Source: Sphingomonas sp. Leaf242
GTDB lineage: Bacteria > Pseudomonadota > Alphaproteobacteria > Sphingomonadales > Sphingomonadaceae
Length of the DNA: 64,000 nucleotides
NCBI RefSeq assembly: GCF_001422045.1
Contig: NZ_LMLW01000009.1
Span: 1 to 64,000 of the forward strand
Direction of reading: 5' to 3'
Under the pieces are notes generated by a model. The model saw only the letters and a program-made list of their open reading frames with translations, did no database searches and was not told where the DNA came from. Positions 6,561 to 63,165 of this stretch are shown in pieces. The translations under genes were made by a program, and so were the position numbers. Positions within the stretch are counted from its first letter, which is position 1; each line of letters opens with the position of its first letter.

Positions 6561-9157
6561 GGGCGAAACTCCCGGGCGAGCGTTCGCACGTCCGCGGCTG
6601 AGATACAGTTCATGGCGGCTGCGGCATGCGCGCGGCAGGCGTCCATCGTGAGCGTCGCGACGAGCGCCTTGATTTCAGGCACGAGTGCCGGCGCGGACGA
6701 GAGTTCGGTGACGCCGAGCCCGATCAGGATCGGTACCGCGAGCGGATCGGAGGCGAGGCCGCCGCACACGCCGGTCCATTTGCCGTGGACCGCACCGCCT
6801 TCGCAGGTCCGCGCGATCAGGCGCAGAACGGCGGGATGGAGCCCGTCAAGGTCGCTCGCGACCGCCGGATTTCCGCGGTCCATCGCGAGCGCATATTGTG
6901 TCAGGTCGTTGGTGCCGATCGACAGGAAGTCGGCTTCGCTGGCCAGCAGGTCGGCGGTGACCGCGGCGGCGGGTGTCTCGATCATGATGCCAAGCGCGAC
7001 ATGCTCGGTATGCCCGGTCGCGGCGGCAGCGGCGTCAAGTGCGGTGCGGACGCTGCGGAGTTCGGCGAGGCTTGCGATCATCGGGACCATGATCCGGCAC
7101 TGGCCGGCGGGGCGGACCGCGAGGATCGCGCGCAACTGGGCGTCGAGCATCTCGGGATAGGCGAGACCGACGCGGATGCCGCGCAGGCCGAGTGCGGGGT
7201 TTTCTTCCGCGGCGATCGGCAGATAGGGCGCGGGCTTGTCGCCGCCGATGTCGAGCAGGCGGACGATCAGCGGGCGACCGTCGAGCGTGTCGGCGATGCG
7301 CTGGTAGTCGGCGGTCTGTTCCTCGACGCTGGGCGCGCTTTCGCGTTCGAGGAACAGGAATTCGGTGCGGAGCAGTCCGCAGCCTTCGGCGCCGTTGCGG
7401 ACGGCCGCGTCGGCGTCGTCGGCCGAGCCGAGATTGGCGAAGGCTTCGATCCTGACGCCGTCCTGCGTGCGGCATTCCTGCGCGGCGTTGGCAAGTGCGG
7501 CGCGGCGGCGTTCGGTCTGCGCGTCGAACGCGGTTTGCGCGGTCGCCTGCGTTTCGGCGTCCGGTGCGACGTGGAGCAGGCCGGCGCCGGCGTCGAGGAT
7601 CAGCGGCGTGCCCGCCGTGATCTCGGCGAGGGCGGGGCCGACTGCGACCAGGGCGGGCAGGCCCATCGTCGCGGCGAGGATCGCGACGTGCGAGGTCGGA
7701 CCGCCGCGCTCGACGCAGAAGCCGACGATCGACGCGGTGTCGAGGCCGAGCAGATGTGAGGGGAGCAGGTCGTCGGCGAGCAGGATCGTGCCGGGCGGGA
7801 AACTCAGGCGTTCGTCGAGGTCTTCGCCGGCGAGCGCGCGGAGCACCTGGCGTTCGAGATCGAGCATGTCGTCGGCGCGCTCGGCGAGGCGCGCGTCGCC
7901 GGTCGCTTTGAGCGCATCGGCTTGGCCGCGGATCGCGGTGCGCCACGCGTAGGCGGCGCTGTCGTCTTGCGTGATCGCGGCGTGGGCGTCTTCGGTCAGC
8001 GTCGGGTCGTCGAGCAACGCGGTATGCGCGGACAGGATCGCGCGCTCGGCGCCGGTTGCGGTGGCGGATTTGCTTGCGAGACGGGCCGCGACCAAGCCGA
8101 GCGCGGCGTCGAGTGCGGCGCGTTCGGTGGTTGCGCCTGCACCTTCGCGGGTCACCGCGATCTCGGCGAGGCGGAAGAGCCCGGCCTGGCCGATCGCGAT
8201 GCCGGGGGAGGCGGTTACGCCGGGCAGGCGGCCGTCGGCGGGGAGGGTTGTGGCAGGCTTTCGCGCTCCTTGTTCCCCCGCGGAGGCGGGGGCCCAGGAC
8301 CCAGCAGCGCCGTCGTTCGTGATTCCTGGGCCCCCGCCTTCGCGGGGGAACACGGAAGTGGGCGGTGATGCTGCCGGGGGCGTGGGGGCACCGGACCCGG
8401 CCTTCTCGCCCATACCGCCGAGGATCAGGTCGCCGATTGCGGCAAGCGCATCCGCAGCGTCCGGGCCGGTGGCGGCGAGCGTGATCTCATCGCCGAGCTT
8501 TACGCCGAGCGCCATCAGCGCGACCGGGCTGCGGACGTTGCCCTCGCGCTCATCCTTCGTGATTTTGACTTCAGACACGAATTTCCGCGCGATCTCGCCG
8601 ATCCGGGCTGCTGGCCGCGCGTGGATGCCGTGGACCAGTGGCACGACGATCGTGCGGCGGACCGTGTCGCCCTCGACCACCGCCACGTCGGCGGCATCGC
8701 GCGGTTCGAGCGTCATGATCGCCTCGCCTATGCCGACCAGCTTGCCGGTTTCGCGACGAACGATCGTGAAGCGCTCGGGGTTGGTGACGATCACCGGGGT
8801 GATGACCGCGCGCGCTTCGCAGACCAGCAGGTCGAGGTCGAAGCGGATCAGCGGGTCGAGCCGCTGGACGCTTGCGCCCTCGGTCACGCACGGGCTGAAC
8901 CCACGCCCGCCGAGCGCGACCGTGTCGAGCCCGATGTGCATCAGGATCTCGGCGCCCTCTGGCGTACGCAGCGTGATCGCGTGGCCGCTCGCATGGACGC
9001 TGAGCACGACCGCGTCGCACGGTGCGTGCAGGCAGTCGCCGGTCGGATCGACGGCGATCCCGTCGCCCATCATCCGTTCGGCGAAGACCGGGTCGGGGAC
9101 CGCCTCGAGAGGCGATGCCCAGCCCTGGAGGGGCGACGTCAGGATGATCGGCTTCAT
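6557..9157 (-). CDS. ptsP: Fused PTS phosphotransferase EIIA-HPr-EI (NagF type)
   Basis: This 866-residue cytoplasmic protein carries the whole phosphate relay from PEP to NagE. Residues 1-150 are EIIA of the glucose family, with the active His in ILMHIGLD (His74). Residues 168-250 are HPr with GIHARPAA (His179). Residues 313-866 are enzyme I: phospho-His in GGPTSHVAI (His490), then GLRTEFLFLER, DIGGDKPAPYL, SIGTNDLTQY and the C-terminal VCGGLASDP. Fused proteins of this layout serve NAG uptake in Caulobacter and Xanthomonas (nagF). The HPr-EI linker (about 252-312) is enlarged by an in-frame palindromic DNA repeat encoding residues 269-296. The gene starts 4 bases after nagA ends and overlaps nagE by ATGA. 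Confidence 0.92.
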   Translation of the reverse strand: MKPIILTSPLQGWASPLEAVPDPVFAERMMGDGIAVDPTGDCLHAPCDAVVLSVHASGHAITLRTPEGAEILMHIGLDTVALGGRGFSPCVTEGASVQRLDPLIRFDLDLLVCEARAVITPVIVTNPERFTIVRRETGKLVGIGEAIMTLEPRDAADVAVVEGDTVRRTIVVPLVHGIHARPAARIGEIARKFVSEVKITKDEREGNVRSPVALMALGVKLGDEITLAATGPDAADALAAIGDLILGGMGEKAGSGAPTPPAASPPTSVFPREGGGPGITNDGAAGSWAPASAGEQGARKPATTLPADGRLPGVTASPGIAIGQAGLFRLAEIAVTREGAGATTERAALDAALGLVAARLASKSATATGAERAILSAHTALLDDPTLTEDAHAAITQDDSAAYAWRTAIRGQADALKATGDARLAERADDMLDLERQVLRALAGEDLDERLSFPPGTILLADDLLPSHLLGLDTASIVGFCVERGGPTSHVAILAATMGLPALVAVGPALAEITAGTPLILDAGAGLLHVAPDAETQATAQTAFDAQTERRRAALANAAQECRTQDGVRIEAFANLGSADDADAAVRNGAEGCGLLRTEFLFLERESAPSVEEQTADYQRIADTLDGRPLIVRLLDIGGDKPAPYLPIAAEENPALGLRGIRVGLAYPEMLDAQLRAILAVRPAGQCRIMVPMIASLAELRSVRTALDAAAAATGHTEHVALGIMIETPAAAVTADLLASEADFLSIGTNDLTQYALAMDRGNPAVASDLDGLHPAVLRLIARTCEGGAVHGKWTGVCGGLASDPLAVPILIGLGVTELSSAPALVPEIKALVATLTMDACRAHAAAAMNCISAADVRTLAREFRP
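8271..8352. repeat. Palindromic element (GGGGGAAC family) in frame inside the EIIA-HPr-EI gene
   Basis: The arms begin TGTTCCCCCGC and end GCGGGGGAACA; inner arms are GGGGGCCCAGGA and TCCTGGGCCCCC. The element covers 82 bases of coding sequence without a stop in the used frame. A shorter member of the same family is intergenic at 63111-63165. Confidence 0.85.
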
Positions 9158-31897: not shown

Positions 31898-32000
31898 CCA
31901 CCCCGGCGAAGGCCTGGGCCCAATTGGGGGACGGTGATAACGGGGGGACGTGCATCGTCATGTCGACCTTGCCAATTGGGCCCCGGCCTCGCCGGGGTGG
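31898..32000. repeat. Palindromic element (CCACCCCGGCG / CCAATTGGGG family)
   Basis: The arms CCACCCCGGCGAAGG and CCTCGCCGGGGTGG enclose inner arms with CCCAATTGGG and CCAATTGGGCC. It starts 24 bases after the fucosidase stop and could terminate the operon. Related copies are at 54201-54304 and 62974-63078. The gap 31874-32276 holds three such elements and no gene. Confidence 0.8.
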
Positions 32001-32084: not shown

Positions 32085-32167
32085 CCGTCATCCTGACGAA
32101 AGTCAGGATCCAGAGCCACAAGCGTGCCGACCGTTACTCTGGATCCTGACTTTCGTCAGGATGACGG
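32085..32167. repeat. Palindromic element (CCGTCATCCTGACG family)
   Basis: The outer arms CCGTCATCCTGACGAAAG and CTTTCGTCAGGATGACGG and inner arms GGATCCAGAG/CTCTGGATCC are nearly perfect. Other copies are at 37120-37203, 40136-40219 and 43934-44025. Confidence 0.85.
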
Positions 32168-35296: not shown

Positions 35297-37131
35297 TGAC
35301 CGTGCTTCCCGCCGTGATGCCCCCCATGATGCCGGGCGAAACGCCGATCGAGATGCTCCCGCAGCGTTTTGACGGGCCGCCGCCGCCCTGGTCCGCACCC
35401 GAGCCGGGACCGGGGATGGTCGTGTCGTCGGACGACATGCTCGCGCGCCGGATCATCCTCGTGCTGATGACCGGCCTGCTGGCGACCGCGGCGTCGTCGG
35501 CGGTGCAGGAATCGCTGCTCGCGGATGGGCTGAGCTTCTGGGATGTGGCGTTGCTCGCGCTGTTCTTCCCGCTGTTCGCGTGGATTTCGTTCGGATTCAT
35601 GAACGCCGCGATCGGCTTCGTGCTGTTGATGACCGGCGGCCATCCGGGGTTCGTGCCGACCCCGCGACAATCGGAACCGCTCGAGGGGCGCACCGCGATC
35701 CTGATGCCGGTACACAACGAGGACATCGATGCGGTGTTCGAACGGATCGCCTGGATGGCGCGCGCGATCGCCGCCGGTGGCGTCGCCGACCGGTTCGACA
35801 TCTTCATCCTGAGCGATTCGGGCGAAGCGGCGGAGGCGGCCGAGGTCGCGGCGTGGGAGCGCCTCGCGCCGACGCTCGACTGCGCGCTCTATTACCGTCG
35901 CCGGACCGTAAACGTGGGGCGCAAGCCGGGCAACGTGGCGGACTGGATCCGCCGGTTCGGCGGCGGTTACCGCTACATGCTGATGCTCGACGCGGACAGT
36001 TTGATGGGCGGCAACACGATCATCGGCATGGCGCAAGTGCTCGAACGGCGGCCCGCAGTAGCGCTGCTTCAGACCGTGCCGGCGGTGATCAACGGCGTCA
36101 CCCTGTTCCAGCGCTGGATGCAGTTCGCCAGCCGCCTTTACGGCCCGATCTCGACCGCCGGCCTCGTCTGGTGGTCGGGTTCGGAGGCGACCTTCTGGGG
36201 GCATAACGCGCTGATCCGGATCGAGGCGTTCGCGGCGAGTTGCGGGCTACCCGACCTGCCAGGGCGCGCGCCGTTCGGCGGCGTCATCATGAGCCACGAC
36301 ATGGTCGAGGCGGCGCTGTTGCGGCGGCGCGGCTGGCGCGTCCACATGCTGATGACCGAGGAGACGTTCGAGGAATATCCGCCGACGCTGATCGACGCGG
36401 CGGTGCGCGACCGGCGCTGGGCACAGGGCAATATCCAGCATCTCAGCCTGCTGACGTCGTCGGGGTTCCACTGGGTCAGCCGGCTGCAACTGCTGATGGG
36501 CGCTTCGGCGTTCATCACCTCGCCGGTCTGGCTGTTGATGATCGCGACCAGCGTCGTGCAGGCGCTGATCGGCGAGCGCAACATCGTCGAGGCGCAGACC
36601 TCGCTGCAGGTGCTGTTCGTCACGCTGTTGCTGCTGTTCGGGCCGAAGCTGTTGAGCGTGATCTGGGCGTTCTCGAATGCGGAGCGTCGCGAGGGGTTCG
36701 GTGGACGACGCGGGATCGTCCGGTCGGTGCTGGTCGACGTGCCGTTCTCGATGCTGTCCGCGCCGGTGATCGCGTTGACACAGACGATCGACCTCGCGGG
36801 AATCCTGATGGGCCGGAAGTCGGGCTGGGCGCCGCAGAACCGCGATGCGCACGAACTGTCGCTGGCGGACGTGATGCCGCGCTATCGCTGGCATGTCGGG
36901 GTCGGGGTGGCGTTGCTGCTGGTGACGCCGTTCGCGCCGATCACCGCGGCGTGGCTCGCGCCGGTGACTCTGGGGCTGTTGCTCAGTCCGTTCCTGACGA
37001 TGCTGACGGCGAGCGAGAAGGCGGGGCGGTGGGCGCTGTCGCACGGGATGTTCGTCGAGCCGGGCGAACACGTTTCGGTGCTGTCGCGACCGTCGCTGCC
37101 GGCGCACACCAGCGAGCTCCCGTCATCCTGA
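35296..37131 (+). CDS. opgH: Glucans biosynthesis glucosyltransferase OpgH/MdoH
   Basis: OpgH is the inner-membrane glucosyltransferase that builds the beta-glucan backbone from UDP-glucose and moves it outward. The 611-residue protein has two N-terminal membrane segments (about 55-110), a cytoplasmic GT2 domain with TAILMPVHNED, YMLMLDADSLM (DxD motif) and DRRWAQGNIQHL (R-R-W type motif), then several C-terminal membrane segments. It is shorter than the E. coli protein (about 850 residues), mainly at the ends. The last codons and the TGA stop (37129-37131) fall inside a palindromic repeat, so the present C-terminus (SELPSS) was probably set by that insertion. Confidence 0.94.
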   Translation: MTVLPAVMPPMMPGETPIEMLPQRFDGPPPPWSAPEPGPGMVVSSDDMLARRIILVLMTGLLATAASSAVQESLLADGLSFWDVALLALFFPLFAWISFGFMNAAIGFVLLMTGGHPGFVPTPRQSEPLEGRTAILMPVHNEDIDAVFERIAWMARAIAAGGVADRFDIFILSDSGEAAEAAEVAAWERLAPTLDCALYYRRRTVNVGRKPGNVADWIRRFGGGYRYMLMLDADSLMGGNTIIGMAQVLERRPAVALLQTVPAVINGVTLFQRWMQFASRLYGPISTAGLVWWSGSEATFWGHNALIRIEAFAASCGLPDLPGRAPFGGVIMSHDMVEAALLRRRGWRVHMLMTEETFEEYPPTLIDAAVRDRRWAQGNIQHLSLLTSSGFHWVSRLQLLMGASAFITSPVWLLMIATSVVQALIGERNIVEAQTSLQVLFVTLLLLFGPKLLSVIWAFSNAERREGFGGRRGIVRSVLVDVPFSMLSAPVIALTQTIDLAGILMGRKSGWAPQNRDAHELSLADVMPRYRWHVGVGVALLLVTPFAPITAAWLAPVTLGLLLSPFLTMLTASEKAGRWALSHGMFVEPGEHVSVLSRPSLPAHTSELPSS

Positions 37132-37203
37132 CGAAAGTCAGGACCCAGAGTAACTGCGCGTTGCCCGTCTTGGCTCTGGATCCTGCTTTCGTCAGGATGA
37201 CGG
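37120..37203. repeat. Palindromic element (CCGTCATCCTGACG family) supplying the opgH stop codon
   Basis: The left arm CCGTCATCCTGACG contains the opgH TGA at 37129-37131. The right arm CGTCAGGATGACGG ends 4 bases before the convergent MFS gene ends. As a long hairpin between convergent genes it may also terminate both. Confidence 0.85.
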
Positions 37204-38707: not shown

Positions 38708-40251
38708 GCCTGCCACCCCCCGCCGAGCGCCTTGAAGACGTCGACCTGGCGATCGACCAGCAGCGCGTCGGACGCGGCGAGGTTGGCTTGGGCGGTGGTC
38801 AGCGCCGCCTGCGCGGTCAGCAGCGAGAGGAAGTCGGTGCGGCCGAAGCGGTAGAGCGTCCCGGCCTGATCCGCGGCGCGTGCGGCGCTGGATTGCGCGC
38901 GGCGCAGGGCTGCGTTGCGGTCGCCTTCGCGCGCATAGGCGGAGAGCGCGGTCTCGGTCTGGCGGAGGGCCTCGAGCGTGGTCGAATCGAACTGCGCGAG
39001 CGCCTGGTCGGCGGTGGCACCGGCCTGGGCGATCTGCGCGCGGATGACCGGGCGGTTGGGGAAGCTCCAGCTGATCAACGGCCCGAGCCCGAGATGGAAC
39101 GCGTTGGTCGAGCCGAGCGACGAGACCGGACCGGTAAAGCCGGCCGAGCCGCCGAGGCTGACCTGCGGATAGAGGTTGGCGGTGGCGACGCCGATCCGCG
39201 CGGTCGCGGCGGCAAGCGATCGCTCGGCCTGGCGGATGTCGGGACGGCGCTGAATCAGCGCGCTGCCATCGCCGATCGGCAATGGCCGGTTTAGCGCGGG
39301 TGGCTTGGCGCAGGCCTCGACTTCCTTGGGATAGTCGGCGGGCGCGCGACCCATCAGCGTGGCGAGCCGGTACAGCGCGGCGGTGCGCGTCGCGACCTGC
39401 GACGGGATCAACGCCTCGCTCTGGTCGACCGCGGTCCGCGCGCGCGTCACGTCGAACGCGGTACCGCGGCCGCCGCGTTGCAGGCGTTGCGTGACGTTGA
39501 GCGTCTGGCGTTGCAGTGCGAGGATGCGGTTGTTCGCGGCGAGCACCATGTTGGCCGTGCAGGCGGTGGCATAGCTGCGCGCGGTTTCGGCGGCGACCGT
39601 CACGCGGACGTTGTCGCGCGCGGCGGCGACGGCCTCGGCGTCGCCTTGTGCCGCCTCGATCGCGCGGCGGATGCGGCCGGACAGGTCGAGCGGATAGGCT
39701 AGCGTGATACCGAGGTTGTAGTCGAGCGTTCCGGGGAGGTTGCCACCGGTCGTGTAGGGGCGGTCGAGCGAGGTGCCGCCGCCGAGGACGGTCGACAGCG
39801 TGCGGCCTGCGGCGACTTCGGCGACGACTGCGTCGGCGCGGCGCAGGTTGGCGTCGGCGGCGCGGAGATCGGTGTTGGCGGCGAGCGCTTCGGTGACGAA
39901 CGCGTCGAGGCGGGCGTCGCCGTAGAGTTGCCACCAATGGTCGGGGAGGGGGGTGTCGGCGAACGCCTTCTCGTGGCCGCTGTCGAACGCGCCTTGGGCG
40001 GAGGGGCGGTTGACGACGGCGGACTCGGGGAGCGCGTAGTTCGGGCCGGCGGTGGTGCAGGCGGCGAGGGCTAGCGCGAGGACCGCTGGCGCGATGCTAC
40101 GATGACCGACGTGTGCCGAGCGATCACGCCTGCCCCCGTCATCCTGACGAAAGTCAGGATCCAGTGCCACGCAGGACATCGCTTGTAACCCTGGGCCCTG
40201 ACTTTCGTCAGGATGACGGCGGGGGGTGGGGCGGATGGTGGGGAACGTCAT
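38704..40251 (-). CDS. NodT-family outer-membrane efflux lipoprotein with repeat-derived N-terminus
   Basis: This outer-membrane factor forms the exit channel of a tripartite efflux pump. After a lipobox (LALALAAC, Cys65) come the NodT features: PLPDHWWQLYGDARLD, coiled-coil helices, GTAFDVTRARTAVDQSEA and IQRRPDIRQAERSLAAATARIG. The coupled ATG at 40251 overlaps the HlyD stop, but residues 11-39 are encoded by a palindromic DNA repeat placed between the start and the signal peptide. The only later Met before the signal is residue 25 (40179), itself inside the repeat. Whether the long leader still permits secretion is unclear; the open frame shows the insertion was tolerated. Confidence 0.88.
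   Translation of the reverse strand: MTFPTIRPTPRRHPDESQGPGLQAMSCVALDPDFRQDDGGRRDRSAHVGHRSIAPAVLALALAACTTAGPNYALPESAVVNRPSAQGAFDSGHEKAFADTPLPDHWWQLYGDARLDAFVTEALAANTDLRAADANLRRADAVVAEVAAGRTLSTVLGGGTSLDRPYTTGGNLPGTLDYNLGITLAYPLDLSGRIRRAIEAAQGDAEAVAAARDNVRVTVAAETARSYATACTANMVLAANNRILALQRQTLNVTQRLQRGGRGTAFDVTRARTAVDQSEALIPSQVATRTAALYRLATLMGRAPADYPKEVEACAKPPALNRPLPIGDGSALIQRRPDIRQAERSLAAATARIGVATANLYPQVSLGGSAGFTGPVSSLGSTNAFHLGLGPLISWSFPNRPVIRAQIAQAGATADQALAQFDSTTLEALRQTETALSAYAREGDRNAALRRAQSSAARAADQAGTLYRFGRTDFLSLLTAQAALTTAQANLAASDALLVDRQVDVFKALGGGWQA
40136..40219. repeat. Palindromic element (CCGTCATCCTGACG family) in frame in the nodT-like gene
   Basis: The outer arms are CCGTCATCCTGACGAAAG and CTTTCGTCAGGATGACGG. 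The spacer differs from other copies. It is read without a stop on the minus strand and contributes about 28 residues before the signal peptide. Confidence 0.85.
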
Positions 40252-43933: not shown

Positions 43934-44025
43934 AACTCCGTCATCCTGACGAAAGTCAGGATCCAGGGTAACGAGCGATATCCTGTGTAACTCTGGATCC
44001 TGACTTTCGTCAGGATGACGGAGTT
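43934..44025. repeat. Palindromic element (CCGTCATCCTGACG family) between marR and tmk
   Basis: This is the most complete copy, with arms extended to AACTCCGTCATCC and GGATGACGGAGTT. Its last base touches the tmk stop codon (44025-44027), so it probably acts as the tmk terminator. Confidence 0.85.
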
Positions 44026-54172: not shown

Positions 54173-54200
54173 CCGATTGGACGGCTTCCTTGTCCTGGTA

Positions 54201-54304
54201 CCACCCCGGCGAAGGCCGGGGCCCAATTGGGGGACGGTAATAACGGAGCGCAGCGCGCTGTTACGACTACCTTTCCATTTGGACCCCGGCCTTCGCCGGG
54301 GTGG
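54201..54304. repeat. Palindromic element (CCACCCCGGCG family) between mutS and maeB
   Basis: The outer arms CCACCCCGGCGAAGGCC and GGCCTTCGCCGGGGTGG are perfect; inner arms include CCCAATTGG and CCATTTGG. It occupies most of the divergent gap between mutS and maeB, so promoters for both must fit around it. Confidence 0.85.
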
Positions 54305-54399
54305 TGCTGTGAGGGGATGGGCGAAGTGTCCGGGGTGACGGATGTAGATCGCCTGCCTAGAAGGTGCCTTAATCCCAACGACCGTGCGAGGCCCCGCCC

Positions 54400-62882: not shown

Positions 62883-62973
62883 GGTTTGTCTGGGCGTGGT
62901 GGCGGTTGCGTCAGTCCGCGCTCTACATCCAAAGTTTCGCTACTGATCGCTCCCCGACGGTCCAATTAGGCAA

Positions 62974-63078
62974 CCACCCCGGCGAAGGCCGGGACCCAGT
63001 TGGAAAGGTCGCAGTAACAGCTCGCCACCTTCGTTAGCGACGCCGCCCAACTGGACCCCGGCCTCCGCCGGGGAGGTG
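62974..63078. repeat. Palindromic element (CCACCCCGGCG family)
   Basis: The outer arms are CCACCCCGGCGAAGGCCGG and CCGGCCTCCGCCGGGGAGG, with inner GGACCCAGTTGG and CCAACTGGACC. It shares the 332-base convergent gap 62883-63214 with a second element at 63111; no gene is seen in that gap. Confidence 0.8.
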
Positions 63079-63110: not shown

Positions 63111-63165
63111 TGTTCTCCCGCGAAGGCGGGAGCCCAGTCTGGACCTCCGCCTTCGCGGGGGAACA
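63111..63165. repeat. Short palindromic element (GGGGGAAC family)
   Basis: The arms TGTTCTCCCGCGAAGGCGGG and CCGCCTTCGCGGGGGAACA match the outer arms of the element embedded in the EIIA-HPr-EI gene. The loop is reduced compared with that copy. Confidence 0.8.

Follow-up and report, generated by a model that had tools for sequence, protein, structure and literature searches.

The window analysed here, a stretch of 64,000 nucleotides from Sphingomonas sp. Leaf242, carries a ptsP gene whose product is a fusion of EIIA, HPr and enzyme I (EI) (Table 1). Pfam places the EIIA domain of this protein at residues 6–129, HPr at 167–245 and EI-N at 313–427, followed by the mobile domain at 453–526 and the PEP-binding domain at 559–836. 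H59, H74, H179 and H490, which would include the catalytic histidines, lie in invariant columns of a 25-row alignment. The AlphaFold2 model of the product has a mean pLDDT of 79.3 and a pTM of 0.53, with most blocks above 70, and the longest of its four segments with a pLDDT below 50 runs from residue 250 to residue 302, where the HPr–EI linker is predicted to be disordered.

Within this linker the coding sequence contains an 82-bp inverted repeat with 29-bp arms and a 24-nt loop, beginning with TGTTCC at 8271 and ending with GGAACA at 8352. The original prediction had given the palindrome these same limits, 8271–8352, and had read it as an in-frame addition of residues 269–296 at a permissive site; the arm and loop read-out, the ORF with the Pfam domain limits and the low pLDDT of the linker agree with it on each of these points in turn. 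It had also described the arms as perfect, which needs a small correction, as 28 of the 29 positions pair and the single mismatch sets GCGGAGGC against GCCTTCGC. The arm hairpin, CCCCCGC-GAAG-GCGGGGG, consists of a 7-bp GC stem and a loop of 4, with the tail CCCAG. Folding of positions 8251–8372 as RNA gives a z-score of −8.5 and folding of the element as DNA one of −8.2, none of 200 shuffles being equally stable in either case, and five of the six reading frames of the element are open. An Rfam scan of the window returned no family at gathering score.

Table 1. Coordinates of the ptsP gene, its palindromic element, the other palindromes of the window and the LigA loci compared
Feature	Position	Strand	Remarks
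EIIA-HPr-enzyme I fusion gene (ptsP), element carrier, 866 aa	6557..9157	-	ORF and Pfam
Palindromic element, type B	8271..8352	-	in-frame residues 269-296 of the EIIA-HPr-EI fusion
EI-side arm of ptsP element	8271..8299	.	coding strand gives about WAPASAGEQ
Loop of ptsP element, 24 nt	8300..8323	.	similar to other type B loops; reversed in the Sphingomonas sp. UV9 (L079) orthologue
HPr-side arm of ptsP element	8324..8352	.	coding strand gives about VFPREGGGPG
Type C palindrome	31898..32000	.	79 bp of interior absent in relative G034, short hairpin left
CGTC-headed palindrome	32085..32167	.	
CGTC-headed palindrome	37120..37203	.	
CGTC-headed palindrome	40133..40222	.	
CGTC-headed palindrome	43934..44025	.	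loop exactly inverted in relative G034
Type C palindrome	54200..54305	.	
Type C palindrome, GGCGAAGGCCGGG arms	62973..63077	.	adjoins type A copy
Type A palindrome, about 57 bp, 1-nt centre	63111..63165	.	ptsP arm family; no spanning coding ORF found
LigA loci of insert comparison	L160:2-2053; L234, L264-L275, L235	- (L160)	19-codon palindromic insertion, present in 7 of 14 genomes

The element belongs to a dispersed family, as had been proposed: the arm pattern CCCGCGAARGCGGGNGCCCAG, with up to two mismatches, matches the genome 275 times (141 + 134), and the same pattern read backwards, used as a control, matches it nowhere. From the window and 115 stretches chosen by pattern match, a sample that is not a genome census, 177 units were sorted into 83 of type A (about 57 bp, with arms joined at a single central base), 27 of type B (looped and about 82 bp long, the form present in ptsP), 56 of type C (with GGCGAAGGCCGGG arms and a longer loop) and 11 halves. 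Copies are often adjacent, 19 of the 99 clusters in a first sample having four alternating arms, and at many places (L033, L038, L041 and others) a type A palindrome has one of type C next to it, about 30 bp away. The ptsP loop resembles 18 of 26 other type B loops at a shuffle p of 0.02 or less, in a comparison that included conserved arm-edge bases, which favour a match. The Y1 transposase domain PF01797, present in 8 of the 37 genomes searched, gave no match in the genome itself, and mobilisation by a resident RAYT (REPtron) is therefore not supported.

Six of the 177 units lie in genes, as judged by a codon-usage filter and Pfam. Besides ptsP, the hosts are ligA, which encodes the NAD-dependent DNA ligase and has the element inside its adenylation domain, two acyl-CoA ligase genes (the second of them exosortase-associated), a flavin amine oxidase gene and the gene for the bifunctional NAD(P)H-hydrate enzyme NnrDE; the ptsP element falls between Pfam domains and the other five are each spanned by one. 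The loose filter passed 18 ORF rows, of which 14 were tested in Pfam (five domain-spanned), ptsP was tested apart, and three were left out, namely an antisense ptsP ORF, a short second ligA ORF and a 58-aa ORF; as it can overlook weakly coding genes, 6 of 177 is no census. Ten of the twelve in-gene arms are read in the phase that gives FPREGG or WAPAFAGE, the remaining two give SPADAGAQ or GPPP, and none uses the arginine-rich phase, a bias that is the pattern expected from a protein-level filter. Type C copies in two relatives (L343 and L344) do use the arginine-rich phase, giving PRRRPG.

Comparable elements have been described before. CGTC-tagged REP dimers are, in the available part of the account of Di Nocera et al. 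(2013, PMC3733652), high-copy inverted hairpin dimers found mostly in Alphaproteobacteria, apparently without a dedicated transposase, whose units have a CGTC (or TGTC/CCTC) head, a stem of 8–9 bp with AT in the first two positions, a loop of 4–5 and the tail CCA. They are mostly intergenic, with some lying in genes of several species, among them the DNA ligase gene of O. terrae, where dimers or groups encode 20–30 aa (PMC3733652). The Sphingomonas elements share with them the high copy number, the inverted dimeric form and the mostly intergenic location with some intragenic copies (six of 177), and the arm loop of 4 and the tail CCCAG also fit this partial description, but the 7-bp all-GC stem does not, having no AT pairs at its foot, and types A and B start with TTGTTC or TGTTC and not with the CGTC head; we term them REP-like because both the head and the stem differ. 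The window also holds a related palindrome family that does have the CGTC head of published REPs (CCGTCATCC...), represented by 43934–44025 and three others. Rickettsia palindromic elements (RPEs), as described in the available parts of PMC2229807 and PMC3733652, are 105–146 bp long and translated in frame inside conserved proteins, and RPE-4 and RPE-6 of R. conorii are CGTC REPs (PMC3733652). The likeness to RPEs that the original prediction had drawn holds to the extent that both are dispersed palindromes in frame in several conserved genes, the ptsP copy, at 82 bp in Sphingomonas, lying in a permissive linker; RPEs were compared by description only, and the 30-aa element peptide has no match among NCBIfam models at E values up to 1.

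Among relatives, the element stands at the same site, in frame, with its palindrome intact and always 82 bp long in all 12 close ptsP genes (at least 91% identity), that is, in the window and in 11 named Sphingomonas genomes including S. faeni, S. aurantiaca and S. albertensis; the linker around it and the gene as a whole vary by whole codons in this set. It is absent from all 19 same-genus homologues at 52–71% identity and from all eight further homologues, making 27 distant homologues in all, each at most 71% identical; in a second set, 19 of 71 loci were aligned, 11 with the element and eight without. Close relatives had been expected to lack exactly this segment; all 12 carry it instead, the insertion being old and inherited. 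Because the element-free homologues that align are at most 71% identical, ptsP offers no exact empty site. Nor does any of the 12 carriers have the linker peptide without the palindrome, the pattern that ordinary protein sequence would show. In two genomes (G018 and G024; L003 and L004) LigA is 96–97% identical to the group and ptsP merely 70–71%, which suggests gene replacement on one side, and at this ptsP identity they were rejected as a close empty-site control. The fusion gene of Brevundimonas abyssalis (L112:1501-3989) has an apparent frameshift, with 10 stops in a length that does not divide by three.

We lean, with a little better than even confidence, towards the explanation that a REP-dimer-like insertion was tolerated in the linker and has since been kept palindromic, and sometimes flipped, by template switching during replication. 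In this view two REP-like hairpins in inverted orientation, together making an 82-bp unit of type B from a large Sphingomonas family whose initial spread we infer, would have entered the HPr–EI linker of ptsP long ago. The host was probably ancestral to the S. faeni/aurantiaca group, and the insert would have been translated ever since. Two things would have let it persist: the flexible linker, and a reading phase that stays open on both strands of the palindrome and so would give nearly the same Gly/Pro/Ala-rich arm peptides in either orientation. After insertion the element would have acted more as a DNA palindrome than as a selected peptide, and both the likeness of the arms and the occasional reversal of the loop are probably due to the DNA polymerase switching template from one arm to the other (quasipalindrome correction).

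The low third-position divergence of the arms and the lack of a codon pattern in the loop speak for this explanation. In the ptsP arms, third positions differ by 0.042 per sequence pair when counted by nucleotide, or 0.084 when counted by whole codons, against 0.222 in the rest of the gene, and second positions by 0.111 or 0.069, respectively, against 0.024. Of 789 gene windows, 16 have third positions as low as the arms, and in none is the ratio of third to second positions as low; a point against is that 78 have second positions as high. The ptsP loop diverges by 0.22, 0.28 and 0.21 at positions 1, 2 and 3, or by 0.20, 0.20 and 0.18 without the one reversed sequence, which is the pattern expected in the absence of any amino-acid constraint except that of frame. 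Third positions are likewise quiet in the arms of the first acyl-CoA ligase (as low in 1 of 455 windows) and of NnrDE (0 of 416), where all three positions are quiet and constraint on the DNA is not distinguished from constraint on the protein; in the ligA arms the signal is weak (64 of 617). It also tells against the explanation that the low divergence of arms made of G and C only could partly come from composition or from selection on RNA, and that the same unrepaired arm mismatch is present in 7 of the 12 ptsP sequences.

Reversed loops occur in several of these palindromes. In a comparison of the genome with its relative G034, the CGTC-headed intergenic palindrome at 43934–44025 scores 90 in inverted orientation versus 66 in direct over 92 bases, and reading the alignment confirmed that the loop is exactly reversed. 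This comparison was automatic and covered 123 palindromes with loops of at least 12, of which 38 gave rows with both flanks matched (four of these without a co-linear flank pair and several others, the ptsP row included, misplaced by indels); two rows were marked as reversed, 43934 alone being checked by reading, and three other window palindromes were not located. In NnrDE, the 32-base loop is reversed in three genomes, with 28 inverted versus 8 direct matches in L294, 24 versus 11 in L290 and 22 versus 11 in L293, and in the exosortase-associated acyl-CoA ligase the loop of L337 is reversed relative to that of L341 (20/25 inverted versus 9/25 direct) and of L200 (15 versus 9). At these three loci, intergenic, NnrDE and second acyl-CoA ligase, the arms and flanks are in place around the reversed loop. 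The ptsP loop of Sphingomonas sp. UV9 (L079) matches at 19/24 positions inverted versus 13/24 direct (shuffle p 0.0005). The reversed coding loops that were read are free of stops.

A possible, if somewhat less likely, explanation is that ectopic gene conversion, or repeated insertion at permissive sites, keeps arms alike and changes the orientation or the family of loops. The sister insertions speak for such exchange in several ways. In NnrDE a palindrome is present in all 14 sequences at the same codon site, and it is of type C in L299, the 13 others having type B. For the exosortase-associated acyl-CoA ligase, ten sequences have type B or its relics, L343 and L344 have type C, and L346 and L347 have none. 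A swap of family at one site, seen in these two genes, is not explained by switching within one palindrome and suggests that ectopic exchange or reinsertion has also played a part. Half of the 14 group genomes, seven, have the LigA insert, and in the remaining seven the gene is shorter by exactly 57 bp, or 19 codons, so that for this sister insertion there are empty sites differing by the exact length of the element; residues neighbouring the insert also differ between carriers and non-carriers. Its presence and absence take six changes on the 14-genome tree, at least four of them on supported branches, and trees of the 360 bp on each side of the site have no supported branch and do not tell recombination from repeated gain and loss. 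In a wider LigA set, 26 of the 27 loci read are without the insert, three of 30 having been dropped from motif extraction. The UV9 ptsP loop, too, is matched by the intergenic type B loop L151 at 19/24 positions, equal to its match with the reversed window loop, and therefore may have come from elsewhere. Two of the reversals are easier to understand as flips in place, since 43934–44025 keeps exactly the same loop, reversed, and NnrDE of L294 retains 28 of 32 loop bases in reverse.

We consider it unlikely that the element is a selected mRNA or DNA hairpin, acting for example to slow translation between HPr and EI or to protect the mRNA, even though its retention in all 12 close ptsP genes and its very stable fold are what such a role would lead one to expect. 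In the first acyl-CoA ligase, where the element is present in 14 of 14 sequences, one pair in each arm hairpin toggles between C-G and T-A (11 cells with a double change, a number reached in none of 500 shuffles), which would also fit selection on the hairpin and which may reflect mere subfamily types. From one arm to the other, compensatory change does not clearly exceed chance in any of three genes: ptsP gave one such cell (138 of 500 shuffles), the first acyl-CoA ligase nine (62 of 500) and ligA six (37 of 500). These results count against the template-switching explanation too, and that for ptsP speaks against a selected hairpin. So do the occurrence of the same elements in unrelated genes at unrelated positions, the seven LigA sequences without an insert and the amine oxidase: of 13 sequences of the latter, including the window genome's own copy and leaving aside the truncated locus L334, 11 keep the palindrome, some of them worn, and two (L331 and L333) have a segment of the insert's length without it. 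Matches with an in-frame stop in the aligned span were retained in these comparisons (3 of 13 for NnrDE and 1 of 13 for the amine oxidase).

That the inserted residues serve the PTS fusion as a selected spacer or binding segment seems to us improbable. Frame and element length are kept in all 12 close genes and the arm residues are similar across species, as a functional peptide would have it, but the ptsP loop changes equally at its three codon positions and is reversed in one species, the region is predicted to be disordered, and homologues of the same family do without the insert. An ordinary linker that is palindromic by chance was rejected, as the fold z-scores below −8, the 275 genomic arm matches against none for the control and the likeness of the loop to other type B copies leave it practically no room.

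In the intragenic invertons of bacteria, a segment between inverted repeats inverts within a gene. Template switching within a REP-like dimer, the explanation preferred here, differs in that it invokes no recombinase, and in that both orientations are open in the same phase. Template switching between inverted repeats is described, in the available part of Abraham and Hazkani-Covo (2021, PMC8604942), as homogenising arms and inverting spacers, also in coding genes of yeast, and likewise for RNA genes in that of PMC8794818. The yeast spacer inversions caused substitutions of 2–5 bp, whereas the loops here are of 24–32 nt and belong to dispersed repeats of bacteria, which have themselves been inserted. 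The available part of PMC3733652 does not mention reversed loops for CGTC REP dimers, and among the papers listed by a literature search on spacer inversion by template switching, with most subscription journals outside its coverage, none deals with bacterial REP dimers to judge by its title or the opening of its abstract. On these partial sources, intragenic REP dimers and Rickettsia RPEs are already known, and the flipping of coding loops in REP dimers seems to be new.

A bolder reading, about which we are rather doubtful, is that REP-dimer insertions in core genes are spontaneous invertible cassettes that need no recombinase. With one and the same phase open on either strand of the palindrome, a flip would swap the loop peptide and leave the gene intact, and the PTS fusion and NnrDE might then exist in two interchangeable versions, possibly within one population.

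The usual explanations for palindromes in conserved genes are selfish DNA and selected hairpins. The bacterial group studied here supplies sets of orthologues in which empty sites, swaps of family and reversed loops are found in the same genes, and such sets help to tell the needs of the protein, namely length and frame, from the behaviour of the DNA by itself, namely keeping its palindrome and flipping its loop. The case also warns against taking every conserved hairpin within a coding sequence as a sign of selection.
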